The translations under genes and the position numbers were made by a program. A stretch of 64,000 nt of DNA from the NCBI RefSeq assembly GCF_003627155.1, contig NZ_CP032621.1, forward strand, positions 1,523,501 through 1,587,500, read 5' to 3'. Under the pieces are notes generated by a model. It made no database searches. It was not told the DNA's origin and saw only the letters and a list, made by a program, of their open reading frames with translations. The stretch comes from Streptococcus gwangjuense. GTDB lineage: Bacteria > Bacillota > Bacilli > Lactobacillales > Streptococcaceae. This document shows positions 4,530-23,000 of this stretch, piece by piece. Position 1 is the first letter of the stretch. Each line of letters begins with the position of its first letter.

Positions 4530-4614
4530 TCACGACTTGAAGGAAAAACAAGATTTTTGCCTATTTTTTAGAAAGCAATCTGTTTTTCAATTTCATTTTC
4601 AATTACTTATCATT

Positions 4615-5865
4615 TTACTCTTCAAAATCAAAACCATACAAGGTTGCAAAATAGTCCTCAGGGCGCTCTGCACGGCGGATTTGGCGGGCTTTACCTTCTT
4701 CAGTATAAAGGATTTCCGCAGAACGAAGTTTGGCATTATACTGGTAGCCCATTGAAAAACCGTGGGCACCTGTATCATGAATTACCAGCAAATCACCGAT
4801 TTCTGTATGAGGCAGTTCGCGATTCACTGCAAATTTATCATTGTTTTCACAGAGTGAACCAACCACATCTACTACTTCAGCTGGTCCTTCTGGATGGGTC
4901 ACGTTAGTAATATGGTGATAGGCTCCATACATGGCTGGACGCATAAGGTTGACTGCTGATGCATCCACACCTAGATAGGTACGGTAAGTTTTCTTCTTAT
5001 GAGTGACTCTTGTGACCAAAGCACCGTGAGGTGCCAACATAAAACGACCCAATTCGGTGAAAATCTTAACCTGACCAAGACCTGCTGGCGTAAGAACCTC
5101 TTCATACACCTTACGAACTCCCTCACCAATCAAGGCGATATCATTTGGCTCCTGGTCTGGACGATAGTTGACACCAATACCGCCAGAAAGATTGATAAAG
5201 TCTAGCGAAATGCCCAACTTTTCCTTGATTTCAACAGCCAATTCAAAAAGCTGACGAGCCAACTCTGGATAATAGAGATGGGTAACAGTATTAGACGCTA
5301 GGAAGGAGTGAATTCCAAAAGTCTTGGCTCCTTTTTCCTTCAAGATGGCAAAAGCTTCAAAGAGCTGGTCCTTGGTCATACCAAACTTGGCTTCTCCAGG
5401 ATTGTCCATAATGTCTGTCCCCAGTTCAAAAACGCCTCCAGGATTGTAACGACAAGAAATAATTTCTGGAATGCCTGCTGCACGCTCCAGATGTTCAATA
5501 TCTTCAAAGGCATCCAAGTTAATAGTCGCACCCAATTCACGCGCATAGGCGTATTCCTTATCTGGCGTGTTGTTTGAAGAGAACATAATCTCAGAACCAG
5601 GAAAATTCAGTTTATGACTCATCAAAAGCTCTACATAACTAGAGCAATCCACGCCACAGCCTTCCTCTTGAAGAATTTTCAAGATAGCTGGGGTTGGAGT
5701 AGCCTTAACTGCAAAATATTCCTTAAAGCCCTTGTTCCACGAAAATGCTTGGTTGACGGCTCTTGCCTTCTCACGAATCCCCTTCTCATCATACAAGTGA
5801 AAGGGAGTCGGGAACTCGGCAACAATCGCTTCTAACTCTTCTCTATTGATAAATGGTGTTTTCAT
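4615..5865 (-). CDS. lysA: Diaminopimelate decarboxylase LysA
   Basis: 416 aa, fold-type III PLP enzyme. The PLP lysine is in YFAVKATP (about residue 54), with GVDCSS, the SGGIGVNYRP glycine loop, FTELGRFMLAPHG, and the C-terminal GSLCENNDKF and DTGAHGFSMGYQYN motifs that bind substrate across the dimer. It converts meso-diaminopimelate to lysine, the last step of lysine synthesis. The opening residues place it among LysA proteins; carboxynorspermidine decarboxylase (NspC) is a related but shorter family. Mitis-group streptococci use lysine in peptidoglycan, so this feeds wall synthesis too. Confidence 0.88.
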   Translation of the reverse strand: MKTPFINREELEAIVAEFPTPFHLYDEKGIREKARAVNQAFSWNKGFKEYFAVKATPTPAILKILQEEGCGVDCSSYVELLMSHKLNFPGSEIMFSSNNTPDKEYAYARELGATINLDAFEDIEHLERAAGIPEIISCRYNPGGVFELGTDIMDNPGEAKFGMTKDQLFEAFAILKEKGAKTFGIHSFLASNTVTHLYYPELARQLFELAVEIKEKLGISLDFINLSGGIGVNYRPDQEPNDIALIGEGVRKVYEEVLTPAGLGQVKIFTELGRFMLAPHGALVTRVTHKKKTYRTYLGVDASAVNLMRPAMYGAYHHITNVTHPEGPAEVVDVVGSLCENNDKFAVNRELPHTEIGDLLVIHDTGAHGFSMGYQYNAKLRSAEILYTEEGKARQIRRAERPEDYFATLYGFDFEE

Positions 5866-5892
5866 AAGCTTCTTTCTATTCTATTTGCAAAG

Positions 5893-5920
5893 AAAGGCTG
5901 GGACAATCGTTCCAACCTTT
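5893..5920 (-). terminator. Probable terminator after purR
   Basis: Imperfect stem AAAGG-TGG-AC/GT-CCA-CCTTT with two mismatches and a CTTT tail on the minus strand, between the purR stop and lysA. Confidence 0.45.
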
Positions 5921-5931
5921 AGTTCTATCTC

Positions 5932-6759
5932 TTATTTATCTTCGTCAAAGATATTACCAACCTCAACATCGATGGCTTGGTTCTTGACATCAATATTGGT
6001 TACCTTCAAGAGTGACTTGTAGTCAAACTGCTTTTCACGTTCTTCTTGAGCATTGTCCGCAAAGACCGCTACACCTGCCAGTTCTGAGTCGAACTCGCGC
6101 AAAAGACTAATCATCCCATTGACAGTTCCGCCGCCTTTCAAGAAGTCATCCACAATCAAGACACGGCTGCCTGCCTTGAGACTACGTTTTGAAAGGAACA
6201 TTTTCTCAATACGGTCACCACTTGAACCTGAAACATAGTTGACGCTGACAGTTGAACCTTCGGTAATTTTCAGGTCACGGCGCACAATGACAAAAGGAAC
6301 ATTGAGGACATTGGCAACTGCATTTGCAAGTGGAACACCCTTGGTCGCTACGGTCATAACCGCATCAATTTTTTGGTCCATAAAGCTCTTGGCAATAATA
6401 CGACCAATATTTTTCAAGATGGCTGGTGTGCTAAGCAAATCAGACAGGTAGATGTAACCACCTGGCAAGATACGGTCACTTTCTGACAACTTGTCACGCA
6501 AGTCCTCAACCATTTCCTTGGCATCATGGCTTGAGATTGATGGTGTGAAGATGACACCTCCACCAGCACCAGTTACTGTCTGGATATGACCAATTTCGAT
6601 TTCCTCAAAGGCACGTTTGATAATGACGATATCTTCTGAGATAGATGATTTAGCAGATTCATACTTTTCAGCAAAAGTATTAAGACTAGTTAGTTTATAA
6701 GGATTATTAATCAAATAGTTGGAAATGACAACCATCCGATCACTTCTTCTTAATTTCAT
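5932..6759 (-). CDS. purR: Purine operon regulator PurR
   Basis: 275 aa from the ATG at 6759, chosen because family members begin MKxRRSxR. It has an N-terminal winged helix (residues 1-70) and a phosphoribosyltransferase-type domain with the PRPP loop VLIVDDFLKGGGT (about 195-207). In B. subtilis PurR is a repressor released by PRPP; in Lactococcus the same family activates purine genes at PurBoxes, so the sign in this organism is open. It overlaps no neighbour. A PurBox-like sequence lies over its own promoter, suggesting autoregulation. Confidence 0.94.
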   Translation of the reverse strand: MKLRRSDRMVVISNYLINNPYKLTSLNTFAEKYESAKSSISEDIVIIKRAFEEIEIGHIQTVTGAGGGVIFTPSISSHDAKEMVEDLRDKLSESDRILPGGYIYLSDLLSTPAILKNIGRIIAKSFMDQKIDAVMTVATKGVPLANAVANVLNVPFVIVRRDLKITEGSTVSVNYVSGSSGDRIEKMFLSKRSLKAGSRVLIVDDFLKGGGTVNGMISLLREFDSELAGVAVFADNAQEEREKQFDYKSLLKVTNIDVKNQAIDVEVGNIFDEDK

Positions 6760-12517: not shown

Positions 12518-13084
12518 TTAACTATTCTCATAAGATTTCATGGCTTCTTCTACTTCTGCCAAGGTAACCCCGAACAACTCTAAGCGTTTGAGGAGTTGCT
12601 TTCCGTTAGAATAGCCGATTCGGAGAGTCTCTCCCAGATATTCTCGTCGTTTACGGCTATCTGCCCCTGCTAGAAAACCAAGTCGAATCAAGTCGCTACG
12701 ACCGATATCAAACTGACTCTCATGTTCAAATTGTTCTGTAACCTGAGCTAGAGCTGTTTTCAGGTCTTCATAGCTAGCATGTTCGATTCCCAGAGAACGC
12801 CCCTTGGTCTTGGACTTGGGAACAGCTTCATCTCGTTTGAGGAAGGCATGCTGAACTGTTGGAATGGCCGTCATAATCATGCGACGAATCCGCTCCCCAT
12901 TAAAATCTGGGTCTGTAAAGACAATGACTCCATGGCGTTGGTGCAAGCGCTGAATACGCTCTATATCCTGATTATTAATGGCAGAACCTCGCGTTTCATA
13001 GGTCTCTACATCGAAGTAACGTTTGAGATTGGCCGTATCATCGCGGCCTTCTACCACGATAACTTGAGAAATTTTTTCCTTCAT
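12518..13084 (-). CDS. rnmV: Ribonuclease M5
   Basis: 188 aa. It has an N-terminal Toprim domain with VVEGRDD (residue about 10) and FTDPDFNGERIR (about 58-69), and a C-terminal M5 domain with GADSRKRREYLGE. It matures 5S rRNA precursors, usually with ribosomal protein L18. Its ATG shares one base with the tatD stop (TAATG), so it is translationally coupled to tatD and depends on transcription from upstream of tatD. Confidence 0.95.
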   Translation of the reverse strand: MKEKISQVIVVEGRDDTANLKRYFDVETYETRGSAINNQDIERIQRLHQRHGVIVFTDPDFNGERIRRMIMTAIPTVQHAFLKRDEAVPKSKTKGRSLGIEHASYEDLKTALAQVTEQFEHESQFDIGRSDLIRLGFLAGADSRKRREYLGETLRIGYSNGKQLLKRLELFGVTLAEVEEAMKSYENS

Positions 13085-13860
13085 TACTTGCTGTCCAATC
13101 CAAAAATTCGTTCTGCATTTGCAGTTGTTACTGCCGCTAGCTCTTCTGCCGTCATGCCACGCAAATCTGCGATAAAGTCCACTACATAACGAGTGTAGGC
13201 TGTTTTGTTTTCACGACCCCGTTTAGGAACTGGAGCCAGGTAAGGCGCATCCGTCTCCACCAAAATCTTGTCCAAAGGTAACTCTTTAGCCGCTTCTTGT
13301 ATATCAGTTGCCTTCTTGAAAGTCACCACTCCAGAAAAGGAAATAGTCATGCCCAGCTCGACAAACTTCTCTGCCCATTCAAGAGTCCCTGAGAAAGAAT
13401 GCATGATGCCACCACGTGGACCAACCCCCTCGCTCTTGATAATCTCATAAGTATCTTCCAGCGCATCACGGGTATGAACAACAAAAGGCAAATCTAAGTC
13501 CTTAGATAGCTGAATTTGACGACGAAAAACCTGCTCCTGCACCTCTTTTGGCGCTGTCATCCAATGGTAGTCTAAGCCAATTTCACCTAGAGCCACAACC
13601 TTGGGATGTTTTAACTTATCCAACAAGTAAACCTCGACTTCCTCCGTGTAAGTCCCTGCTTCTGTAGGATGCCAACCAATAGTCGCGTAAAGTTGGTCAT
13701 ACTCATCCACCAACTCCAAAGCACGCTCAATCGTCGGTTTATCAAAACCAACAATATTCATCTGTGTCACACTCATCTCAGCAGCCAAGGCAATCTCTTC
13801 TGCCTCACGACCTGCAAATTCTTCTACATTTAAGTGTGTATGTGTATCAAAAATATCCAT
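13084..13860 (-). CDS. tatD: TatD family metal-dependent deoxyribonuclease, start rebuilt by an inserted element
   Basis: 258 aa TIM-barrel hydrolase: DTHTHLN (metal His), GEIGLDYHW, PFVVHTRDA, MHSFSG and ETDAPYL. TatD enzymes are 3'-5' exonucleases or DNases. Codons 3-8 are the attL core of an integrated element. The start used now, MDIFDTHTH, with its AGAAGGAAA site, belongs to the element. The original start (ATG directly before ATTTTTGATACACAT) is left 8.4 kb away at 22295-22297. The protein is intact but its promoter has been replaced. It is the first gene of tatD-rnmV. Confidence 0.95.
   Translation of the reverse strand: MDIFDTHTHLNVEEFAGREAEEIALAAEMSVTQMNIVGFDKPTIERALELVDEYDQLYATIGWHPTEAGTYTEEVEVYLLDKLKHPKVVALGEIGLDYHWMTAPKEVQEQVFRRQIQLSKDLDLPFVVHTRDALEDTYEIIKSEGVGPRGGIMHSFSGTLEWAEKFVELGMTISFSGVVTFKKATDIQEAAKELPLDKILVETDAPYLAPVPKRGRENKTAYTRYVVDFIADLRGMTAEELAAVTTANAERIFGLDSK
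13838..13854 (+). repeat. attL core
   Basis: GTATGTGTATCAAAAAT, codons 3-8 of tatD on the minus strand. It is identical to 22278-22294, and the next base outside differs on each side. Confidence 0.85.
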
Positions 13861-13960
13861 ACTATATTTCCTTCTCTTTCCTCAATATTCCTTAACTACC
13901 AGAAGAAAAGAATTTCTTTCTTCTATACTTCCCTATATTTCCTCTAGTATCTATTCACTT

Positions 13961-13990
13961 TGGTTAGTACTTGGTTAGTTCTATGGTTAG
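13961..13990 (+). repeat. Left arm-type repeats (three TGGTTAG copies)
   Basis: TGGTTAG occurs at 13961, 13972 and 13984, about one helical turn apart, between attL and the end of int. The spacing and place fit arm-type binding sites for the integrase N-terminal domain. Confidence 0.6.
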
Positions 13991-13993
13991 CAT

Positions 13994-15133
13994 CTACAGA
14001 TGAATTTGATTAAGTTTCTCTCTCAATTCATCCTGTATATTTTTTGTTACATGACTATAGATCCTTAAAGTGATAGATTCATCTCTATGTCCAACTCGCT
14101 CCATAATAGCCTTTATGGGTATCCCTAGTTCAGCCAACAAACTAATATGAGAATGTCTAAGCATGTGAATATTATAGGATCTGTGCCCACCTAACACTAC
14201 TTCACAAATATTTTTGATAAATCTATATAACAAAGGTTGTCTCATAATGTTACCTTGCTCAGTCACAAAGATGAACTCCTCATCAAAACAGTTACTACGA
14301 AAGTACTCGATAATTTCCAAGCAACGTTCACTTAGTACTATCGTCCTTACAGAACCTATTGTTTTCGTTGTCTGTAATATTCTCTCATCATATCCATGAG
14401 CAACATAATCTATAGTATGATCAATTGTTAAAAGATTCGCTTTGAAGTTTACATCTTGATAGCGAACCCCTATAAACTCTGCGAAACGAAGACCAGTTAA
14501 AAAGATAAATTCCATTGCCAAAGCATAACGCTTATCTTTATTGTGACTTTCACAATACGATAGAACCTGTCCTAGTTCCTCTCTACTAATGAAATTAGCC
14601 TTAGCTTTTTGCAACTTCTCGTAGTCCGCTTTCTGCTTCGGAATTACCACCCCTTTAACTGGTGAGTCAGAAATATATCCGACCTTTACAGCATAATCAA
14701 AGATACCATTCAAGTAAATTTTTCGATTTTTTCTTGTTGAATTTTGAACATTCAAATTCATTAGATATGTTTGAACTAGCTGAGTGGTGTAATCTGATAT
14801 TCTCAAATTTCCTACTATTCCCATGAAAAGCTCTAAACTTTTCACCTCACTTCTATAACTAGAAGATTTTATCTCACTGGAACGAATAGTTTTCCATTCT
14901 TCCAATAGTTGACTGAAATTCATTTCTTCTAGTTGTTTCTTTTCAACTTCCTCTTTTGTAGGGGCGGTTAGAAGTTTTTCAATTTTTAGCGCTAAACGAC
15001 GTTTTGCTTCTGCTTGAGAAACTCTAGATTTTGATTTTAGAGTCACAGAGACTTGTTTCCACTTTTCCTCTCGTTCATGATAGAATTTCTCATAATAACG
15101 GTATTTCCCATTATCCAATTCTTTAAAAAACAT
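13994..15133 (-). CDS. int: Tyrosine recombinase/integrase
   Basis: 379 aa. It has an N-terminal arm-binding domain (1-75), a core-binding domain (about 75-170, SAM-like), and a C-terminal catalytic domain with Arg216 (TGLR), the box II motif HMLRH (His323, Arg326), His349 (VGHR) and nucleophile Tyr359. It is of the Tn916/phage Int type. It should exchange strands between attP and the 17-bp attB in tatD. The start at 15133 has AAGGAG 6 bases upstream. It is the gene nearest to attL, transcribed towards it. Confidence 0.95.
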   Translation of the reverse strand: MFFKELDNGKYRYYEKFYHEREEKWKQVSVTLKSKSRVSQAEAKRRLALKIEKLLTAPTKEEVEKKQLEEMNFSQLLEEWKTIRSSEIKSSSYRSEVKSLELFMGIVGNLRISDYTTQLVQTYLMNLNVQNSTRKNRKIYLNGIFDYAVKVGYISDSPVKGVVIPKQKADYEKLQKAKANFISREELGQVLSYCESHNKDKRYALAMEFIFLTGLRFAEFIGVRYQDVNFKANLLTIDHTIDYVAHGYDERILQTTKTIGSVRTIVLSERCLEIIEYFRSNCFDEEFIFVTEQGNIMRQPLLYRFIKNICEVVLGGHRSYNIHMLRHSHISLLAELGIPIKAIMERVGHRDESITLRIYSHVTKNIQDELREKLNQIHL

Positions 15134-15166
15134 TTTTTCTCCTTGTACTTTTAAAGCAAAGGAAAG

Positions 15167-15205
15167 CTATGTAGCATAGCTTAATTATAACATAACTACA
15201 TAGCT
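15167..15205. repeat. Inverted repeat between xis and int
   Basis: AGCTATGTAG and CTACATAGCT are perfect 10-base arms separated by about 20 bases that include TATAAC. The right arm covers the last codons of the Xis-like gene. It may be a terminator/attenuator limiting int expression or a protein binding site; no long T run is present. Confidence 0.5.
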
Positions 15206-15405
15206 TCCTCATATTTCTTTTGTTTATACTGCAAAAATTCCTTATAGCCTTCAACATCTATATAGACTCTCTTATGAGAAGGCTTTAAAATGTATCCTTG
15301 GAATTTTTCATTTCGTCTCATCTCTGTTAGATCATTATTTAAGGTTTTTAGCGGAATATCAAATAATTCCGTAATCCCTCTCTTACTTTTATATATATTT
15401 CCCAT
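15196..15405 (-). CDS. Excisionase-like small DNA-binding protein
   Basis: 69 aa, basic (many Lys/Arg), with a probable helix-turn-helix (KRGITELFDIPLKTLNNDL, residues 8-26) followed by a wing-like part, as in MerR-type excisionases. Its place directly upstream of int and its size fit Xis, which steers Int to excision. The start has AGGAG 6 bases upstream and lies 51 bases past the stop of the Rep gene. No database call was possible. Confidence 0.65.
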   Translation of the reverse strand: MGNIYKSKRGITELFDIPLKTLNNDLTEMRRNEKFQGYILKPSHKRVYIDVEGYKEFLQYKQKKYEEAM

Positions 15406-15456
15406 AAAATTCTCCTATTTTGATATAATAGGGATGATAAAAGACAACTTCTTTTA

Positions 15457-16308
15457 TTACCTACTTAGCTTGTCAGTTGCTCCGATAAAAGTATCTGACA
15501 GGCTTTTTAAGTTGTCATAAAACTCCGTAGTATATTCTTTCACACCATAAGGAGTTTCATGTTTTGTGGTCCGTGAAAATGTAGGAGGGCTGTTAATTTT
15601 ATAAGTTTCTATAAGCTCACCCTTTGTTGTTGTAATTTCCAAAGGCTTTTTAATTCCTCTGCTAGTCCGATAAATTCTAATACCCTTGGGATACATGTAT
15701 AGGCGCGCACCTTTTATAATTGCTTTGTTTTGTGAACCCTCATCACCTATCTGTAAATTAGATAAATAAGCAATCAAATAATTCCCAACCTTATCAGCTC
15801 TCTTTAACCTCTTGGTCTTTGTAAAACCTTTCCTCCACATCTTAGCAAGGTCATTGTTAGGAATTGTTAGTTCGGAATCGTTCTTTAATAACACATGCAA
15901 ATGCCACCTTCCACTAGCTTGTGGTTCAATGACCGTAATATAATCAACATTTCCAAACTGATTACGAATGCGTCGAATGAACGCTTTGAAATCCATGTAA
16001 ACTATAGCAGGATCGGTAACATGGTCTCGATAAGTCAACGTTATCCATAACTGGTTGATACCTCCCGTAAAATTATGAGCTACTAGACGGCGTAGTTTTT
16101 TCATAGTCTGTTTAGTAGACTTCAAATTATCGAGTCGTGTACTACTGGAAGTATCCATGTCATGAATTTCTCCCGTCTCCAGATTTACATAACGTTTTCC
16201 AGATATTACCTTGATAGTCTGCTCCTGTTGTCCATTCGCAGTTGTCATTTCTATCGTATCACCATACAAGTAGCTCTTAACAAGTTTAGTTGAATCTATT
16301 TTATACAT
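15457..16308 (-). CDS. HUH endonuclease, Rep/relaxase-like
   Basis: 283 aa. The three rolling-circle motifs are in order: LWITLTY (87-93), the HUH motif WHLHVLL (His136, His138), and YLIAY with two candidate nucleophiles (Tyr177, Tyr181), preceded by Lys173. Such enzymes nick one strand at a hairpin origin and stay bound by a 5'-phosphotyrosine, starting rolling-circle replication or transfer. The element has no other relaxase candidate, so this may do both. The ATG at 16308 has no clear Shine-Dalgarno. The origin-like region lies directly upstream. Confidence 0.72.
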   Translation of the reverse strand: MYKIDSTKLVKSYLYGDTIEMTTANGQQEQTIKVISGKRYVNLETGEIHDMDTSSSTRLDNLKSTKQTMKKLRRLVAHNFTGGINQLWITLTYRDHVTDPAIVYMDFKAFIRRIRNQFGNVDYITVIEPQASGRWHLHVLLKNDSELTIPNNDLAKMWRKGFTKTKRLKRADKVGNYLIAYLSNLQIGDEGSQNKAIIKGARLYMYPKGIRIYRTSRGIKKPLEITTTKGELIETYKINSPPTFSRTTKHETPYGVKEYTTEFYDNLKSLSDTFIGATDKLSR

Positions 16309-16334
16309 ATATATTTATACTTATCGTGCTTTTG

Positions 16335-16506
16335 TTTGACGCTTATCAAGTTAATAGCGTCAAAATTACGATGATTAAATTCAGATTTATTCCATGATTT
16401 ATTGATAATAGGTTCCCTAAGACAATTGAGCTGATTGTGTCGGCGCGGCGAAAAAAGTTCGACCGCACCGCCCCAACCAGTCTAATCTATCTTAGCCTAT
16501 TATCAA
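16335..16506. other. Putative origin (dso or oriT) of the element
   Basis: This 228-base gene-free region upstream of the HUH gene holds a perfect hairpin TTTGACGCT/AGCGTCAAA (16335-16364, 12-base loop). It also has a perfect 11-bp inverted repeat TTGATAATAGG (16402-16412)/CCTATTATCAA (16496-16506) around a GC-rich core at 16440-16475 that stands out in AT-rich DNA. Hairpins beside an HUH gene are typical of nick sites. The nick site itself cannot be named. Confidence 0.45.
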
Positions 16507-16536
16507 CAACTTTCACGGCATAAAGAATTTAACCAT

Positions 16537-17103
16537 CTAAGACCACGGATGTTTCAATTTGAACAACGCCCCTTTAATCGTTCGTTTATCTGATTCATTA
16601 CATATGATGAATACTAGATAGCGCAACCCATTCTTTACATATAGATCAGCGAGACCATGAAGAGCATATTTGTGCAAATAAAAGATCCAAGTATCCTTTA
16701 TTCGTAATAGAACGTCTGAATCTATCTCTCCAAAAATTTGAAACCGAAAAACTACACACCTAGCTCCAAATTCTCGAATCCCATGGTTGCCCATTGTACA
16801 TATAGGAACTCTTTCATCTGCTACGTGCACTCTCTGTATTGACTTACTCCCATCAGCTTGATCAACTTTCTTATCTTCGTAAATTGGAACTAGTGTATAT
16901 GCGAACTGATTTTCCTGAATATTTTCTTTCACTAATTCTAACAATACATTTTGCGTAGAAGCTAGAAATCTATTCCAGTTTTTTTGATTTTCTTCTATCT
17001 GGACTTTCCTCTGGTACTCCTGAAGTTTTCTACTACAAAGACGATAAACTTCCTTAATACCTTTATAAAGCTTCATAGGTATTTCTTCGATGATTGATGG
17101 CAT
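16537..17103 (-). CDS. Element protein of unknown function (188 aa)
   Basis: The start at 17103 is fixed by AAAGGAGG six bases upstream. The N-terminal half is helical and charged (RKLQEYQRKVQIEENQKNW); the C-terminal half is rich in beta-type hydrophobic stretches (CVVFRFQIFG, WIFYLHKYALHGLADLYV). I recognise no family. It lies between the 121-aa gene and the HUH gene, the slot where Tn916-like elements and small IMEs keep replication helper genes, so a role in replication or mobilization is possible but unproven. Confidence 0.65.
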   Translation of the reverse strand: MPSIIEEIPMKLYKGIKEVYRLCSRKLQEYQRKVQIEENQKNWNRFLASTQNVLLELVKENIQENQFAYTLVPIYEDKKVDQADGSKSIQRVHVADERVPICTMGNHGIREFGARCVVFRFQIFGEIDSDVLLRIKDTWIFYLHKYALHGLADLYVKNGLRYLVFIICNESDKRTIKGALFKLKHPWS

Positions 17104-17114
17104 ATTTGCCTCCT

Positions 17115-17480
17115 TTAAAGTTCGACAACTTCAATGACTTTTGCAGTCAAACTAAGCTGATTACGGTACTCTCCGTATACAACTGCCTTCTCAATGTCTA
17201 CAATTTCTATAGCTGTGAGCATCGGTTGAAACGAGTCAAAATCCTTCATCGATGCAAACGGCACTTTTACAGTAAGTTGCTCTCCAATGTTGTTTTTTTC
17301 GTTTGGATAGTCACTTTCATCAGAATAGATGAGTACTCCCACTTTTACTCCTTTTTCAGTCTCTGAACCAGTCTCATTTCTTTCTATCCACCTTGTAGCC
17401 GAAATAAAGCGTAACTCTTTTTGAGCAAGGAATAACGAAGCATTGAACTCTGTAAAATGTGATAAATTTTTAAGTGCCAT
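17115..17480 (-). CDS. Element protein of unknown function (121 aa)
   Basis: The start at 17480 (MALKNLSHF) is chosen for its AAGAAGG site; an open frame runs 12 codons further upstream without one. The protein is mostly beta-strand-like with the pattern TVKVPFASMKDFDSFQPMLTAIEIVDIEKAVVYGEY. The size, the position before the Rep gene and the strand-rich C-terminus recall the DUF961-type Orf22/Orf23 proteins of Tn916, but the similarity is too weak to assign. It ends 11 bases before the 188-aa gene, so the two are surely cotranscribed. Confidence 0.65.
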   Translation of the reverse strand: MALKNLSHFTEFNASLFLAQKELRFISATRWIERNETGSETEKGVKVGVLIYSDESDYPNEKNNIGEQLTVKVPFASMKDFDSFQPMLTAIEIVDIEKAVVYGEYRNQLSLTAKVIEVVEL

Positions 17481-17600
17481 AATTAAAACCTTCTTTCTAG
17501 CTAGACTTAAAAGCAAATCGTCTACTTTTAATCAAATAAACACTGTGACGATTACAGATAACAACATTTAAAATTACCTCCTCAAGTATAAGGAGAAATT

Positions 17601-18032
17601 TCAGCAAAATTCGGAGGATATTATGAATTTTTTTATTCTCTCTATAATACGCTCATACTGTCTTTTGACAGTTTTGTCACTAAGTCCAACTTCTTTTGCA
17701 AGACTCGAGTACGATCTACCTTCAACCACTCCAAACAGAATTTCTCTGTCTTTGTCACTCAACAAACTCTCAATAGCATCATTTATAATAGCAATTTCTT
17801 CTTTTTTAATTAAGAGAGACAATGGGTCATTATAATCTGCTATCGTATCTAATAAAGAACCTTTATCAATAGAACTACTGTCTAAACTACACAGACCGTG
17901 CGATCTATCTTTTCTACATAAATTCTCATAAGACTGATTTAATAAGTTTTCTACCTTATCCCAATCACCAGATAATTTAGCTTTTTTAATTGCTTCTTCT
18001 CTACGTTGTTCTACTTTTGTTAAATCTACCAT
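17601..18032 (-). CDS. Sigma-70 region 4-like regulator
   Basis: 143 aa from the ATG at 18032, which has AGGAGG 9 bases upstream. Residues about 92-135 form a sigma region 4 helix-turn-helix (LLSDKDREILFGVVEG, then SYSSLAKEVGLSDKTVKRQ). The N-terminal part is helical and lacks regions 2 and 3, so it is not a full sigma factor. Tn916 Orf7 is a comparable short sigma-like protein controlling excision and transfer genes. Its Shine-Dalgarno lies in the loop of a hairpin. It is first in line before the replication and integration genes, so it is a good candidate for the element's switch. Confidence 0.75.
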   Translation of the reverse strand: MVDLTKVEQRREEAIKKAKLSGDWDKVENLLNQSYENLCRKDRSHGLCSLDSSSIDKGSLLDTIADYNDPLSLLIKKEEIAIINDAIESLLSDKDREILFGVVEGRSYSSLAKEVGLSDKTVKRQYERIIERIKKFIISSEFC

Positions 18033-18034
18033 AT

Positions 18035-18063
18035 GTTGGTACCTCCTGCTGGGGTTTACCAAC
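18035..18063 (-). promoter_or_regulatory. Hairpin enclosing the ribosome binding site of the sigma-like gene
   Basis: On the minus strand GTTGGTA (18063-18057) pairs perfectly with TACCAAC (18041-18035); the 15-base loop contains AGGAGG. The start codon follows two bases after the stem. A second small stem (GGCT/AGCC) lies upstream near 18080. Confidence 0.55.
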
Positions 18064-18148
18064 ACTACCCAAAGGGGCTCCATAGCCTCTCGTCAGTGGA
18101 AACTTACCTTATGTGATTTTAAAAAGAACATAGTAAGATGCATAAAAA

Positions 18149-18180
18149 AATAGCAGTTATACAAAATCGTATAACTGCTA
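18149..18180. terminator. Strong hairpin ending the three-gene cargo operon
   Basis: ATAGCAGTTATAC/GTATAACTGCTAT, 13 perfect pairs with a 6-base loop, and A/T runs on the outer sides. It separates the 131-242-176 aa operon from the sigma-like gene. Confidence 0.8.
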
Positions 18181-18289
18181 TGCATTTTAATCACTATATA
18201 TATCATAAAAAATTCATAATCATTCACCAATTTATGGACTTTCACATATCACTGACTGGTTAACTTACACATGAATATATTATATTCAA

Positions 18290-18820
18290 TCACTGAAAAA
18301 CATTCTCACTATCGAGCACTAATTCTGAATAAAAAACATCAGGTGTTTGTTTAATAATTTTTAAATGATTTGTTCTTTGTGACTGTGTAAATTTAATTTG
18401 TATTCCATGTTTACTATTATAATTAACAAAGTGTGTTTCTGAATTCTCTGCTAAACATTCTAACGTACTTAACTCAGCCATGATTATTCTGATTTTTCTT
18501 TTTTCCTCTTGACTATCAACAAATACAAATGAAACTGCTGGGATCATCCCTAGCATGTTAGCTGTATCTTTCAATTTGTTTATGTTGTTCCTATCAAAAT
18601 CAAACGATTTACTTTCTGTGTCTGGAAAATTCCTTCCCTTTACAGAAATAGCTAATCTTTTCGAATCTCCTCTCCTCCTGACTGCAACAACATCAGCACC
18701 GACGTGATCAATAAGAGCAACTGACCAATTATTTAATCCTAAAATATACATTACCAAAGATTCTGAAAAATCACCGAATTGTTTTGGGAAACGAAGATCT
18801 CTTTCATCTAAACTACTCAT
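18290..18820 (-). CDS. PD-(D/E)XK-like nuclease-fold protein (176 aa)
   Basis: FGDFSESL (Glu20), GADVVAVRRR (Asp43) and LAISVKGR (Ser59-Val60-Lys61) form the E...D...(E/S)xK pattern of restriction-endonuclease-like enzymes, with Ser in place of the usual acidic residue. The strand-turn-strand spacing fits Holliday-resolvase-like and Mrr-like folds. It may cut or bind nucleic acid. The stop is followed by the hairpin at 18149-18180, and the start is 3 bases past the stop of the 242-aa gene. Function is inferred from the motif only. Confidence 0.6.
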   Translation of the reverse strand: MSSLDERDLRFPKQFGDFSESLVMYILGLNNWSVALIDHVGADVVAVRRRGDSKRLAISVKGRNFPDTESKSFDFDRNNINKLKDTANMLGMIPAVSFVFVDSQEEKRKIRIIMAELSTLECLAENSETHFVNYNSKHGIQIKFTQSQRTNHLKIIKQTPDVFYSELVLDSENVFQ

Positions 18821-18823
18821 AAT

Positions 18824-19552
18824 TTACCTCGACTCTAACTCCCAGTCCGAGAATGGTTTAGCAATTTTTTTATAAATAGATGCTCCTGAAATACTATCTT
18901 TAATATGATGGAAAAATAAAGAAATCACTCCATTTTCACCATAATAAGTAAATTGATCCTTTTTTAAACGAATATAGATAGTTGGGTGTCTTTTCTCATC
19001 ATAATCTATAGTTATGTTTTGGATATTTTCGAATGAAAATTTTTGAATTTGCGACAATTCAGCGTTCTCTTTTCCAAAATTATGAATGAACGAGATAATA
19101 AATTTAGATTCACAAACCGTAATCGAACATACTCTCCCATGAAAATCCGTAAATAATTCAAAATCCTTAAATTCAAATTCTTGAATTATATTATTTCGTA
19201 AGTACCATTTTATAATAGCTCTCTCATACTTATTACGAATCTTTAGAGGAGCTTCATTTTTATTTTCTTTAGCTATCATCCAATCAATAAATGTAATATT
19301 TTGATCATATGTTCCTTTAGGAAAAGCTGATATGAACTTATGTAAGTCATCTTTTTTTACTGGATTATATTTAATATCTGTGTTTGCTACTGAATAGCCT
19401 TGAAGAATTGCCGATACTCGACCACCATCTGAACTCCCATAGTATTCTTCCGTAATTCGTCCTCCACTTACACCATTATAATATCGAAATAAAACTTCTA
19501 CACGTTCATCATTATTTGTTTGTAAAAAAACATTCAACAAGGCAAAACTCAT
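18824..19552 (-). CDS. Cargo protein of unknown function (242 aa)
   Basis: I recognise no family. The N-terminal part carries a Gly-rich stretch (YNGVSGGRITEEYYGSSDGGR, residues about 25-45), the middle is helical (KYERAIIKWYLRNNIIQEF), and the C-terminal third (about 145-235) alternates short beta segments and ends in a helix, a pattern compatible with a PH-like domain. It is the middle gene of a packed operon (16 bases after the 131-aa gene, 3 bases before the nuclease-like gene), so the three probably act together. Confidence 0.6.
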   Translation of the reverse strand: MSFALLNVFLQTNNDERVEVLFRYYNGVSGGRITEEYYGSSDGGRVSAILQGYSVANTDIKYNPVKKDDLHKFISAFPKGTYDQNITFIDWMIAKENKNEAPLKIRNKYERAIIKWYLRNNIIQEFEFKDFELFTDFHGRVCSITVCESKFIISFIHNFGKENAELSQIQKFSFENIQNITIDYDEKRHPTIYIRLKKDQFTYYGENGVISLFFHHIKDSISGASIYKKIAKPFSDWELESR

Positions 19553-19568
19553 ATTATTTACTTACTTT

Positions 19569-19964
19569 CTACTTTTTAACTTTCCACATTGTAACACCAT
19601 TTTTATAATTATATTCTGCTTTATACCCAGCAGCTTTTATTAATGTTATAGTTCTTTTACATATTGTTTCTACATCTTTTCCAGTATTAAAATAAAGCCA
19701 AGTAGGTAATTTATCATATAAAGGCGTATCTCTGAAATATCTAGATTGATAAAAACTATAAAAACTAGCATTAAATACATTTCTAGAGAAAAATTTAGTT
19801 CTTCCATCATAGTTATAACTCATTAACTTTTCTGTTCTTTTAAACTCCTCTATAGCATACTTTTTAAAAGCCCTATATAATTGTTCTTTTTGACTGGTAC
19901 TCATAACTTTAGTTTTATGGTAAACACTATACGATTTTGCAGTTGCAGCAGAATATACTAACAT
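19569..19964 (-). CDS. Cargo protein of unknown function (131 aa)
   Basis: Small basic protein, rich in Tyr, Phe and Lys (SFYSFYQSRYFRDTPLYDKLPTWLYF), with no signal peptide and no motif I recognise. The start at 19964 has an AAAAGGAGTG site 9 bases upstream. It opens the three-gene operon and is transcribed divergently from the XRE regulator, whose operator-like repeats lie between them. That arrangement often marks a regulated toxin-like or defence operon; this is inference from layout only. Confidence 0.6.
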   Translation of the reverse strand: MLVYSAATAKSYSVYHKTKVMSTSQKEQLYRAFKKYAIEEFKRTEKLMSYNYDGRTKFFSRNVFNASFYSFYQSRYFRDTPLYDKLPTWLYFNTGKDVETICKRTITLIKAAGYKAEYNYKNGVTMWKVKK

Positions 19965-20009
19965 AAGACCACACTCCTTTTGTATTGTTTTTTATCTATT
20001 TTAACACAA

Positions 20010-20059
20010 AATTGTACAGTTTGCTATCCAATATCTTATTTTTGGATAGTTAATTGTAC
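20010..20059. promoter_or_regulatory. Operator-like repeats between the XRE gene and the cargo operon
   Basis: An inverted repeat CTATCCAA (20024-20031)/TTGGATAG (20042-20049) is flanked on both sides by direct copies of AATTGTAC (20010-20017 and 20052-20059). An extended -10 for the minus-strand operon (TG-T-TAAAAT) lies next to it at about 19999-20007. It is the natural binding site for the XRE protein. Confidence 0.6.
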
Positions 20060-20110
20060 TTAAAAAATCATATAAAGGATAGTAGAATAGTATAAAAGAG
20101 GAAATTACGG

Positions 20111-20443
20111 ATGGAAGCTAATCAATTACAAAAATACATAGCAGAGCGTATACGAGAATGTAGAAAAGAACAGAATCTTAGCCAAGAACAATTATCCAAT
20201 CAAGCCGGGTTAGGTGTTAAAGCAATACAAAACATCGAGAATATGAAATACGATTTTAAAATACGCACACTTGAAAAGGTTCTTACAGCTTTAGGTATGA
20301 CCGTAGAAGACTTCTTTAATTTCCCGCTTTCAAATAATTCCGTCCCTATAACTACATTGATCGATAACATCTCAGATTTATCACACACAAAAAAATCTAA
20401 AATCATTTCTTTGTTCAATGAAATTGTCAAAAACATAGATTAA
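20111..20443 (+). CDS. XRE family transcriptional regulator
   Basis: 110 aa. The Cro/C1-type helix-turn-helix fills residues 8-62 (RIRECRKEQNLSQEQLSNQ, then GLGVKAIQNIENMKYDFK, LEKVLTALGMTVEDFF). A short C-terminal tail may dimerize. It is the only plus-strand gene of the element and faces the three-gene cargo operon across an operator-like region. It probably represses that operon and itself. GAGGAAATTACGG precedes the ATG. Its transcript ends at the hairpin 20444-20473. Confidence 0.88.
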   Translation: MEANQLQKYIAERIRECRKEQNLSQEQLSNQAGLGVKAIQNIENMKYDFKIRTLEKVLTALGMTVEDFFNFPLSNNSVPITTLIDNISDLSHTKKSKIISLFNEIVKNID

Positions 20444-20473
20444 AAGAGGAACTCTCAATGAATTCCTCTTTTT
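20444..20473. terminator. Terminator between XRE and DUF6575-like genes
   Basis: AAAGAGGAA/TTCCTCTTT stem with T run on the plus strand and A run reading as T on the minus strand, so it serves both convergent genes. Confidence 0.75.
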
Positions 20474-20474
20474 G

Positions 20475-20506
20475 TATGCTACTTTAACCTTCTTTTGATT
20501 AGTTTT
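20475..20506 (+). repeat. Element-end repeat, inner copy
   Basis: This 32-base sequence starts TATGCTACTTTAAC and contains TTAGTTTT. It matches 22186-22217 with three substitutions. Each copy directly follows a terminator-type hairpin. Together they bracket the DUF6575-like two-gene cassette. Confidence 0.7.
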
Positions 20507-20520
20507 TTACTTTATAGATA

Positions 20521-21705
20521 CTAACTATTCTGATTAAAATTTAAAATTTCATATTTTTCAGAAATTACATTTCTATTTTTATCCAAAAAAGTTTGCTTTA
20601 TCCACCTTCCTCGTATTTCACTTGACACCGAAATGGTTCTATTCATTCTCTTAATTTCCCTAAATAATTCACTTGAAAACTTTGCCTTTACTATGCCAGA
20701 TAAAGTTTTTATAGAGACATTATTTCGAGCATTGGATGCACTAGACACTATTCCTTCAAAATAGAATTCTTCTGAAAATACTTCCGCATCATCTTGCTTT
20801 TGAACTAGAGAATTTAAGTCTTGAATAAATTTATCACTTTGTTCATTAACAATAATAGTGGATAGCTTTTTCTTGTCCTTTTCCAAAGTTACAGTAAGGC
20901 CGTTTTCTTTTATGACATTATAAAATTCAACGAAAGATTTTACTATTTTATTATTCTCAAAAATTACATCTGAGTAGACATCCGACGCCTCTTTGTAATT
21001 TATAGATTCTGTAAAAACAATAAAGTCATCAAAATAAAGTTCAAATTCATCCTCAAAAAGAGTAACCTCTTCCGGACGAACTATTTCAAAATTTATATTG
21101 AATGAACCGGGGGTAAATGGTGTTAGTACAAGTTTCCCATTAGTAAATATATTATGTTCCTTTAAAAATACTTTTGATCCCTCTATAAAATTTTCCATCA
21201 AATTTATCGCTTTAGCAACGACATCTAAATCTGCTGAGTGTGAATTATAAGAATCAACTAGCTTTATTGTCAGTTGTTTATTATTTAAAATATCTGAAAA
21301 TGTTGTGGTATATTCACTACATAGCATATTAAAACTTTTTCCACTAATCAAATCCCGCTCAAATTTTGAATCGTCCTCAGGGAAATATTCACTCGCATTA
21401 ATGTTATTCTCTAATTCGAAAATTTTAACACCATATTTAACAAAGATATTATTATTTTCTCTTTTTAGAATGGAAAAGTCATCTTCTAAATAAAACTCTT
21501 GAAGAAGTGTATTCGTAGAAATATCAGAAAATAGAGTTTTCAAATTCTTAATAGAAAGAGGTTTTACAAAAAATGTATCAAAATCAATTGCATATACAAA
21601 ATAATATTTATCATCGATCTTCTTAGTAATAAATGACAATGGAATATCATAGTAATCAAAAATATAAAGATATTCTACTGATTCAAAATCCAAAATACTA
21701 CTCAT
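20521..21705 (-). CDS. DUF6575-like protein (394 aa), partner of a 123-aa gene
   Basis: The N-terminal 110 residues (LYIFDYYDIPLSFITK, YYFVYAIDFDTFFVKPL) look like the DUF6575 domain as I remember it. The long remainder is acidic with mixed helix and strand, and the last 70 residues (about 325-394) form a beta-rich small domain. No catalytic motif or membrane segment is visible. The start codon at 21705 overlaps the end of the upstream 123-aa gene by 8 bases, so the two are coupled. The cassette has its own promoter and terminator. A defence role is plausible from location only. Confidence 0.7.
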   Translation of the reverse strand: MSSILDFESVEYLYIFDYYDIPLSFITKKIDDKYYFVYAIDFDTFFVKPLSIKNLKTLFSDISTNTLLQEFYLEDDFSILKRENNNIFVKYGVKIFELENNINASEYFPEDDSKFERDLISGKSFNMLCSEYTTTFSDILNNKQLTIKLVDSYNSHSADLDVVAKAINLMENFIEGSKVFLKEHNIFTNGKLVLTPFTPGSFNINFEIVRPEEVTLFEDEFELYFDDFIVFTESINYKEASDVYSDVIFENNKIVKSFVEFYNVIKENGLTVTLEKDKKKLSTIIVNEQSDKFIQDLNSLVQKQDDAEVFSEEFYFEGIVSSASNARNNVSIKTLSGIVKAKFSSELFREIKRMNRTISVSSEIRGRWIKQTFLDKNRNVISEKYEILNFNQNS

Positions 21706-22069
21706 TTTCTAAACCTCCTTCCTGAGCATCAAGAAAATTCACATCCTGAAACTCCCACAAATTTAAATGTTCTCCTTCTAACAGTCCCACACCATGACTA
21801 GGTAAAATATTTATCAACACAGCAACTTTATCTTTAAATTTAGGATAACGTTTTTTTAGTTTTTCAATTGCTTGCTCTGATGCAAAAAACGATAAAGCTT
21901 TGGCCTCACATAATTTTGGGGGCGGAAAATTCAAACCTAAATCTACGTGGGTTTTAAAATCATCTTTTTCAGGAACCTCACTATTACATATTCTATAAAA
22001 CGAACCTTCCATCTCTTTTGCTTCAGATGGCGGACAAGCATCTGGATAATCTTCACCATACTTCAACAT
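21698..22069 (-). CDS. Small conserved-looking protein with Cys-Pro-Pro motif (123 aa)
   Basis: The start at 22069 (MLKYGEDYPDACPP) has AAGGGGAATTAT upstream; a start five codons earlier is possible. It is acidic, with the N-terminal pattern GEDYPDACPPSEA (residues 5-17), YRICNSEVPEKDDF (25-38) and a C-terminal HLNLWEF. I recall widespread unassigned small proteins with a CPP..A....YR......DF pattern, but cannot name them. It lacks a signal peptide. It overlaps the DUF6575-like gene by 8 bases and is the first gene of the cassette. Confidence 0.65.
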   Translation of the reverse strand: MLKYGEDYPDACPPSEAKEMEGSFYRICNSEVPEKDDFKTHVDLGLNFPPPKLCEAKALSFFASEQAIEKLKKRYPKFKDKVAVLINILPSHGVGLLEGEHLNLWEFQDVNFLDAQEGGLENE

Positions 22070-22103
22070 ATAATTCCCCTTCAAATTAAAACCAACTATT
22101 ATT

Positions 22104-22132
22104 ATTTTACTCTATGCAAAGTAAGTTTTCAA
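22104..22132 (-). promoter_or_regulatory. Promoter of the two-gene cassette
   Basis: TTGAAA (reverse of 22127-22132), 17-base spacer, TAAAAT (reverse of 22104-22109), 35 bases before the ATG at 22069. Confidence 0.7.
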
Positions 22133-22152
22133 GTATCTACAAATATTATAGT

Positions 22153-22183
22153 GAAATAAAAAGAGAGATTTATCTCCCTCTTC
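22153..22183 (-). terminator. Terminator shielding the cassette from the chromosome
   Basis: On the minus strand AAGAGGGAGAT/ATCTCTCTT followed by TTTTATTT. It would stop transcripts entering from the captured tatD promoter at attR. Confidence 0.65.
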
Positions 22184-22185
22184 GT

Positions 22186-22217
22186 TATGCTACTTTAACT
22201 TTCCTTTGGTTAGTTTT
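22186..22217 (+). repeat. Element-end repeat, outer copy
   Basis: Counterpart of 20475-20506. It contains the first of two right arm-type sites. Confidence 0.7.
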
Positions 22218-22225
22218 ATGGTTAA
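22207..22225 (+). repeat. Right arm-type repeats (TGGTTAG, TGGTTAA)
   Basis: TGGTTAG at 22207 and TGGTTAA at 22219, 12 bases apart, the same sequence and spacing as the three copies near attL. Confidence 0.55.
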
Positions 22226-22273
22226 TTTATGCCTTAATAATGTCATGAGTCCTTAAACTGTACTCCAAACACT

Positions 22274-22330
22274 CTAAGTATGTGTATCAAAAATCATCTC
22301 TTCTAACCTCGTTTTCTATCTACTATTATA
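22274..22330 (-). other. Displaced native tatD promoter and start
   Basis: An extended -10 TG-C-TATAAT (reverse of 22325-22333) is followed by GAGG and an ATG at 22297, then ATT TTT GAT ACA CAT ACT TAG: a seven-codon stub MIFDTHT. The shared core shows that this was the start of tatD before insertion. Confidence 0.8.
22278..22294 (+). repeat. attR core
   Basis: GTATGTGTATCAAAAAT, identical to attL. Beyond it lies the old tatD start region. Confidence 0.85.
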
Positions 22331-22455
22331 GCAAAAAAACTGACCTCTCTCCTCATCTGAAAAAAATATTCTAAAACCCATTATCATCTCTTGATGCTAT
22401 TTTCCCCAAAGCAGTATAATAGCTCTTTTTAAAATTCTCATTAAAGGAAATAACC

Positions 22456-22739
22456 ATGTTTACAAAATTAAAACAGACTTTTATCGATTGATCTCTCAAG
22501 TCCTTAACTGAATGCGAGAGGAGACAGCTGGGAAAAATGCAGGCATTTGCCATCTTGTCAAGCGACGCTCTGTCTTCTATTGCCAATGGACCTGAGCAAG
22601 TAGTCCTCATCCCCAGTTTATTATTAGTAAAGCTTGGCAACATATTCTACACAATCAGATGAGTCTCAAACTCAAATATGCCCTCCGTTGGCACCAAGAC
22701 GTCGTTGTCGCTAGCTATTCCTATCACTTAAAAGAATAA
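22456..22739 (+). pseudogene. Remnant of an APC-type amino acid permease
   Basis: The frame from the ATG at 22456 reads MFTKLKQTFID, stop, SLKSLTECERRQLGKMQAFAILSSDALSSIANGPEQVVLIP: the N-terminus of a large APC-family permease as I remember it in streptococci. After about 50 residues it jumps to a C-terminus-like MSLKLKYALRWHQDVVVASYSYHLKE and a stop at 22737-22739. So it has an in-frame stop and has lost nearly all of the middle (a full protein would be around 600 aa). GGAAATAACC precedes the ATG. It is non-functional. Confidence 0.65.
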
Positions 22740-22805: not shown

Positions 22806-23000
22806 ATACTCAATGAAAATCAAAGAGCAAACTAGGAAGCTAGCCGCAGGCTGCTCAAAGCACTGCTTTGAGGTTGTAGATGAAACTGACGAAGTCAGCT
22901 CAAAACACTGTTTTGAGGTTGCAGATAGAACTGACGAAGTCAGTAACATACCTACGGTAAGGCAACGCTGACGTGGTTTGAAGAGATTTTCGAAGAGTAT
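22806..23000 (-). repeat. BOX element, boxA-boxB-boxB-boxC
   Basis: 195 bp, reverse orientation: boxC starts at 22806 (ATACTCAATGAAAATCAAAG), two boxB units of about 45 bp follow (TGACGAAGTCAG repeated near 22886 and 22933), and boxA ends at 23000 (TTCGAAGAGTAT). It is the classic repeat of S. pneumoniae and S. mitis. It sits just past the stop codon of the ali-like gene. Confidence 0.95.

Follow-up and report, generated by a model that had tools for sequence, protein, structure and literature searches.

The window, a stretch of 64,000 nucleotides of Streptococcus gwangjuense DNA, contains two genes, hereafter A and B, located at the right-hand extremity of an integrative element of 8.46 kb that occupies the tatD site (13838-22294; Table 1). 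A precedes B on the same strand, and the two reading frames overlap by eight bases, as the initial annotation had it. The product of A displays the motif P..CPP..A...YR...C.A.A.S...G...H.NLW. As read from the sequence, AAGGGG provides A with a good ribosome site, and GGAAGGAGG, embedded in the 3' end of A, provides B with a strong one.

The promoter that had been attributed to the pair corresponds to a plausible site upstream of A; such sites are, however, not enriched around the pair, with 11 seen against 11.2 expected from shuffle controls. The pair does lie between terminators, as had been proposed: two terminator-like hairpins were found in 20400-22400, against 0.5 expected. The hairpin upstream of A possibly shields the pair from chromosomal read-through. 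Immediately outside each hairpin is located a copy of a 32-base element-end sequence. With its bounding hairpins and end copies, the pair is confirmed as a real feature of the locus.

Table 1. Features of the gene pair A-B and of its carrier element (positions in the window)
Feature	Position	Strand	Basis or remark
Left att core	13838-13854	+	17-base exact repeat; at the 5' end of the presumed tatD-like gene 13084-13860
Tyrosine integrase of the carrier	13994-15133	-	PHROG phrog_1 integrase, 6.7e-73
XRE-type regulator adjoining the cargo slot, marker of related elements	20111-20443	+	HTH_3, 8.6e-12
Terminator-like hairpin downstream of B, common to the convergent XRE gene	20442-20472	-	Terminator scan
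Inner copy of the element-end sequence	20475-20506	+	34 bases past the last XRE codon
Gene B, 394 aa, predicted toxin	20521-21705	-	ORF, ATG start
Gene B parts: N-terminal, PD-T4-10_B/DUF6575-like; C-terminal, modelled OB fold (residues 309-394)			
A stop/B start overlap, 8 bases, ATGAGTAG	21698-21705	-	Sequence
Gene A, 123 aa, predicted antitoxin (PD-T4-10_A-like)	21698-22069	-	ORF, ATG start
Candidate A-B promoter, TTGAAA-17-TAAAAT, 10/12	22104-22132	-	
Terminator-like hairpin upstream of A	22160-22183	-	Terminator scan
Outer copy of the element-end sequence	22186-22217	+	92 bases from the att core
Right att core	22278-22294	+	17-base exact repeat

The tatD-site carrier element

The ends of the element are marked by a 17-base exact direct repeat, GTATGTGTATCAAAAAT, at 13838 and 22278; the gene in which the left copy lies is taken to be tatD-like. 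Besides the integrase, the element encodes a replication protein with a REP_ORF2-G2P match in Pfam (15457-16308). The two features expected of an integrative and mobilizable element (IME) at tatD, a tyrosine integrase and direct repeats, are both present. The text of Coluzzi et al. (2017, PMC5357655) includes tatD among the integration sites of streptococcal IMEs, and the tatD IMEs that it describes resemble the carrier in having a tyrosine integrase, a small size and an insertion site at a gene's 3' or 5' end. They differ from it in that no relaxase family was recognised in the carrier among the proteins scanned, a subset of its genes, and in that the terms defense, abortive and toxin are absent from the main text of that paper, unlike the defence cargo read here.

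The motif GGTTAG/A occurs at 13962, 13973 and 13985, beside the integrase gene, and again at 22208 and 22220, in or next to the outer end copy; the inner end copy of the window harbors a degenerate GATTAG instead. These motifs are candidate arm sites of the integrase. As to the arm-type Int site that the initial annotation had placed in the outer copy, the motif is there, at 22208, and its role is putative.

The region 15457-18820 also encodes a sigma-70-like protein of 160 residues and a 176-residue protein with a weak match to Holliday-junction resolvases. To the left of the XRE regulator, at 18290-19964, the genes vary among related elements (products of 131 and 242 residues here, others in L002 and L018), and these differences suggest a second cargo slot. 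Beyond the right end, 22457-22739 is the relic of a gene, presumably permease-like, whose counterpart next to this element in L017 and L016 has 623-635 codons; judged by eye, the relic retains stretches resembling the start and the end of that gene alone, which points to an internal deletion. The host sequence beside the element also contains two adjacent 45-base copies that are 82% alike (22845-22934).

Relatives of the pair and their context

Among 284 Streptococcus genomes, six contain A, and these six are also the ones that contain B. Four of these carry near-identical copies in the same slot, and the remaining two are S. cristatus, with a tatD-type att, and S. mitis DD26 (L019, L107). Weak matches of B to L007 and L008, which we take to be ArgR-like and SecA-like regions, were rejected as unrelated. 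In S. mitis DD26, a phage-satellite-like element has the pair at one of its ends and encodes integrase, Abi_2, Rha and replisome-organiser proteins, the Abi_2 gene scoring 116.5 bits for a cut-off of 25.6. A run of N separates this element from a neighbouring gene that is presumably ctsR-like, part of a ctsR-clpC-like pair. The integrase and Abi_2 occupy one end and A-B the other (L107:1470-3914 and L019:6001-7546), so arranged that the element would carry two defence candidates, one per end.

A search of 368 Bacilli genomes with DUF6575 returned four genomes, three of them over the cut-off, and an A-type gene stands directly upstream in all four. The A profile finds six genomes in the same set, every one with B alongside; five of the six were already in the profile, and in the single new one, G864 (L106), the B beside A is fragmented. 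Scanning genome contigs with A recovered the streptococcal group alone (4 loci). The PD-T4-10_A model found none of 398 Bacillota genomes but also none of 14 controls, and is hence uninformative. The gene adjoining the pair in L099 reads as a chromosomal neighbour, presumably rlmH; L097-L100 and L106 were placed neither inside nor outside a mobile element.

A first scan of viral contigs with A found none, and scans with B and with wider A/B alignments found prophage relatives. In L020, the pair follows an amidase lysin. A Staphylococcus prophage group comprises seven contigs with both genes, 0-1 base differences apart, and one further contig (L035) that ends in A; the lysin region of L022 matches Staphylococcus phages exclusively (9 of 9 records). 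In L028, the pair is found between genes that we take to be lysin-like and integrase-like, and further prophage pairs are those of L046, L056, L057, L065 and L066, the flank of L057 giving one Bacillus phage match, over 93 bases only. In tblastn searches, window B, L021 A, L028 B and L098 B had no match among phages, and L021 A and L028 B none among plasmids. L098 B matches four plasmid records, one of which is also matched by L098 A. A lies upstream of B in the Oscillatoria, Arthrobacter and Rhodococcus plasmid records; in the Mycobacteroides record (L110), which encodes a short B of 134 residues, A was not found alongside by profile.

Counting near-identical copies once, B is present in 20 lineages from Bacilli, unassigned prophages and actinobacterial and cyanobacterial plasmids (the window group, L018, L019, L020, the L021 group, L028, L046, L056, L057, L065, L066, L097, L098, L099, L100, L106, L108, L109, L110 and L111). 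A or a remnant of it stands directly upstream on the same strand in 19 of them, L110 being the exception; the remnants counted are the frameshifted A of L065 and the fragment of L066. Most of these lineages were recovered via A or B themselves and form a biased sample; the least biased count is that of DUF6575 over 368 genomes. The lineages with a readable context are mostly in mobile elements, often in an end slot, and the prophage pairs come after the lysin, near a contig end or an integrase. Both the co-occurrence and the mobile context anticipated for a defence cassette are therefore borne out. B is short or broken beside an intact A in L097, L099 and L106; the opposite case is found in L065 alone (4604-6113), where B is intact and A is split by a frameshift, which is odd for a toxin and may be a sequence error.

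Homology to PD-T4-10 and predicted function

PD-T4-10 was described in E. coli as two overlapping ORFs (Vassallo et al. 2022, PMC9519451). According to the text of that study, its B protein is toxic and is neutralised by A, A could not be deleted, and deletion of B abolishes resistance to T4, the defence being abortive infection directed against T-even phages. In the literature collection searched for DUF6575 and PD-T4-10, this was the one paper found. The initial annotation knew of no named function for either protein of the window; a toxin-antitoxin abortive-infection function is on record for distant relatives.

Scans of the window proteins against Pfam, NCBIfam, PHROGs and PADLOC return nothing firm. 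A matches PD-T4-10_A of PADLOC over nearly its full length at E 0.015 (13 bits), and B has no match in Pfam, DUF6575 included, or in PADLOC, with weak ones in NCBIfam and PHROGs. The pair being nearly silent in direct scans, its identity has to be drawn from bridging homologues. Their A proteins match PD-T4-10_A at 8.3e-11 (L056), 1e-10 (L028), 4.7e-8 (L057), 4.2e-7 (L046) and 1.3e-5 (L021); at E up to 1, the model is matched by 8 of the 10 members of alignment A7, the window included, and the A proteins of L019 and L020 gave no match. Among ten B proteins scanned, one matches PD-T4-10_B (L056, 1.9e-7) and four exceed the DUF6575 (PF20215) cut-off (L056, L057, L046 and L028), L056 with 32.2 bits for a curated cut-off of 26.6; B of L097, L098 and L099 is likewise above it in the search of 368 Bacilli. 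The "DUF6575-like" label initially given to B does not hold for the window protein by itself, but it does for these homologues.

Profile comparisons connect the streptococcal to the bridging group, at E 2.1e-24 for A (probability 99.6, 112 columns) and 7e-22 for B (probability 99.4, 368 columns); they are rough, each group having been aligned separately with five sequences per side. The link to E. coli PD-T4-10 runs via the PADLOC models (PDLC04023/PDLC04024) and the bridging prophage pairs rather than by pairwise protein comparison, and extends over nearly the full length of A and the N-terminal part of B. Both systems consist of two overlapping ORFs with A before B. They differ in that the streptococcal sequences are too divergent for the PADLOC models, and in that the streptococcal pair is IME-borne and its activity predicted.

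A second system enters the comparison through the B proteins of L021 and L065, which, instead of PD-T4-10_B, weakly match PDC-M63B (1.5e-3 and 6.8e-5, respectively); these matches suggest that PDC-M63 may be one branch, and PD-T4-10 another, of a common family. The window proteins have no match to PDC-M63 in PADLOC. PDC-M63AB is a PADLOC candidate made of two prophage genes in E. coli NILS69, and it is reported to have given no detectable defence there (PMC12409345).

Seven residues of A are invariant in 13 diverse members (P9, C12, P13, C54, S60, H101 and W105), and six of B in 12 (P22, F25, P109, S201, G318 and Y385). Over larger distances (dS >1, unsaturated), B has a dN/dS of 0.22-0.40 and A one of 0.25-0.28, saturation affecting 4 of 10 comparisons for A: both genes are under purifying selection at this range. 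Among near-identical copies of A, the ratio is 0.43-0.82 and rests on 4 to 13 changes. A structure model and fold comparison, informative for residues 309-394 alone, assign an OB fold to the C-terminal part of B, a hint that the target may be a nucleic acid. Searching solved structures by sequence gave chance-level matches only. An ADP-ribosyltransferase-like fold for A, an assumption of ours from reading its sequence, is not claimed.

Within the PD-T4-10/DUF6575 family of toxin-antitoxin defence systems, the pair is probably a divergent Gram-positive representative that occupies, as cargo, the end slot of a tatD-site element, the homology to PD-T4-10 designating A as antitoxin and B as toxin. 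Gene order, overlap, co-occurrence, mobile context and homology form the observed basis of this assignment, and the homology lends support to the defence module first put forward from the locus; nothing seen here speaks for the anti-mobile-element activity offered as its alternative. By analogy with the E. coli relative, B would be toxic and A would neutralise it. A would be made first from a single promoter, translation of B would start at a strong ribosome site embedded in the terminal part of A, and in a healthy cell A would hold B inactive. When a phage infects, B would be freed by host shut-off, by loss of A or by a phage product, and would arrest growth via a target that its OB fold may bind, such as single-stranded DNA, RNA or nucleoprotein; the arrest would lower phage yield, that is, act as abortive infection. 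The post-lysin slots in prophages and the position opposite Abi_2 in the S. mitis element argue for defence, and the leaning of broken copies towards B, with A intact, argues for a toxin-antitoxin pair; the purifying selection seen at larger distances likewise counts in favour of the assignment. Against this assignment stand the failure of window B to match either PD-T4-10_B or DUF6575 and the marginal score of window A, the small share of B proteins that match these models (1 and 4 of 10), the silent A proteins of L019 and L020 and the two B proteins that resemble PDC-M63B instead. The intact B beside a frameshifted A in L065, the short B of L110, for which the profile finds no A, the dN/dS of 0.43-0.82 among near-identical A copies and the five loci unassigned to a mobile element also count against it.

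Toxin-antitoxin homology would serve equally well as evidence for an addiction module that mainly keeps the integrative element in the chromosome, phage protection being a side effect. The location of the pair at an element end agrees with such a role, as does its nature of optional cargo, deduced from its absence in nine of 14 related elements. This alternative is nonetheless unlikely: positions after prophage lysins and opposite Abi_2 are typical of defence genes, phage protection was what the E. coli relative had been selected for, and the three lineages that keep A beside a short or broken B indicate that addiction is not strong there. Still less probable is that the pair is part of a wider DUF6575 family and acts like PDC-M63 or otherwise, not as toxin-antitoxin; the B proteins of L021 and L065 and the intact B next to a frameshifted A in the latter would fit, but A of L021 matches PD-T4-10_A, and A precedes B on the same strand wherever A was found.

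Insertion of the cassette and duplication of the end sequence

The inner and outer end copies are identical at 29 of 32 positions, the three differences being those initially reported; in a Markov control, the best 32-base match reached at most 25 in 200 generated versions of both 401-base regions. Related elements were collected with the XRE protein, which matches 51 of 284 Streptococcus genomes at E<=1e-20; 30 loci were fetched, and the comparison covers the 14 with at least 76% identity, the 16 below 76% (L081-L096) being left out.

Nine of the 14 elements lack the cassette and display the order XRE terminator, end sequence, att core. In eight of these, a single end copy is located 34 bases from the last XRE codon, and the att core follows 92 bases further on; the remaining one, L079, has its att in place but a repeat so diverged that a pattern search misses it. 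The cassette is present in the window, G076, G170, G201 and S. cristatus (L018/L078). All but the last possess two flanking end copies, the inner one 34 bases from XRE, and these are identical at 28 of 28 positions in both G170 and G201. The outer copy is 92 bases from att in the window, G170 (L016) and G076 (L002); in G201 (L017), the att core was not found within the slice examined. S. cristatus harbors the outer copy alone, likewise 92 bases from the att core. One copy in empty elements and two in four of the five carriers show that insertion of the 1.7-kb cassette entailed a doubling of the end sequence, which bears out the end duplication proposed at the outset.

As the likely route of insertion, two tatD elements would have joined by accretion and then undergone a deletion, a process described in the text of PMC5357655 as a route of module exchange in streptococcal IMEs. 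Two related elements would have recombined and thereby placed the cassette in its slot, with an end sequence remaining on either side. That the likeness of the ends is due to chance or driven by terminators, the cassette being an ordinary old part of the element, might be read from the hairpins abutting both copies and from the lone outer copy of S. cristatus, but is barely credible in view of an identity above all 200 controls, of single copies at both diagnostic distances in eight of nine empty elements and of the two perfectly matching copies in G170 and in G201.

A further-reaching proposal is tentative and rather unlikely as a whole. The pair would be a discrete, exchangeable cassette, captured from or lost to sister elements by recombination between the 28-base end copies, which contain presumed integrase arm sites, so that one IME family would turn over its phage-defence cargo with the element staying put; B would be an OB-fold toxin acting on nucleic acid, a type not described in the text of the PD-T4-10 paper.

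If the assignment of the pair to PD-T4-10 is true, a system known from one E. coli study is also present in integrative elements of streptococci, in prophages of Staphylococcus and in further mobile DNA. The conserved residues of A and B are candidates for mutation, and the OB fold is a first modelled fold for part of B, the predicted toxin. The end copies would, if correctly read, represent a precise insertion footprint showing how small IMEs gain defence cargo.
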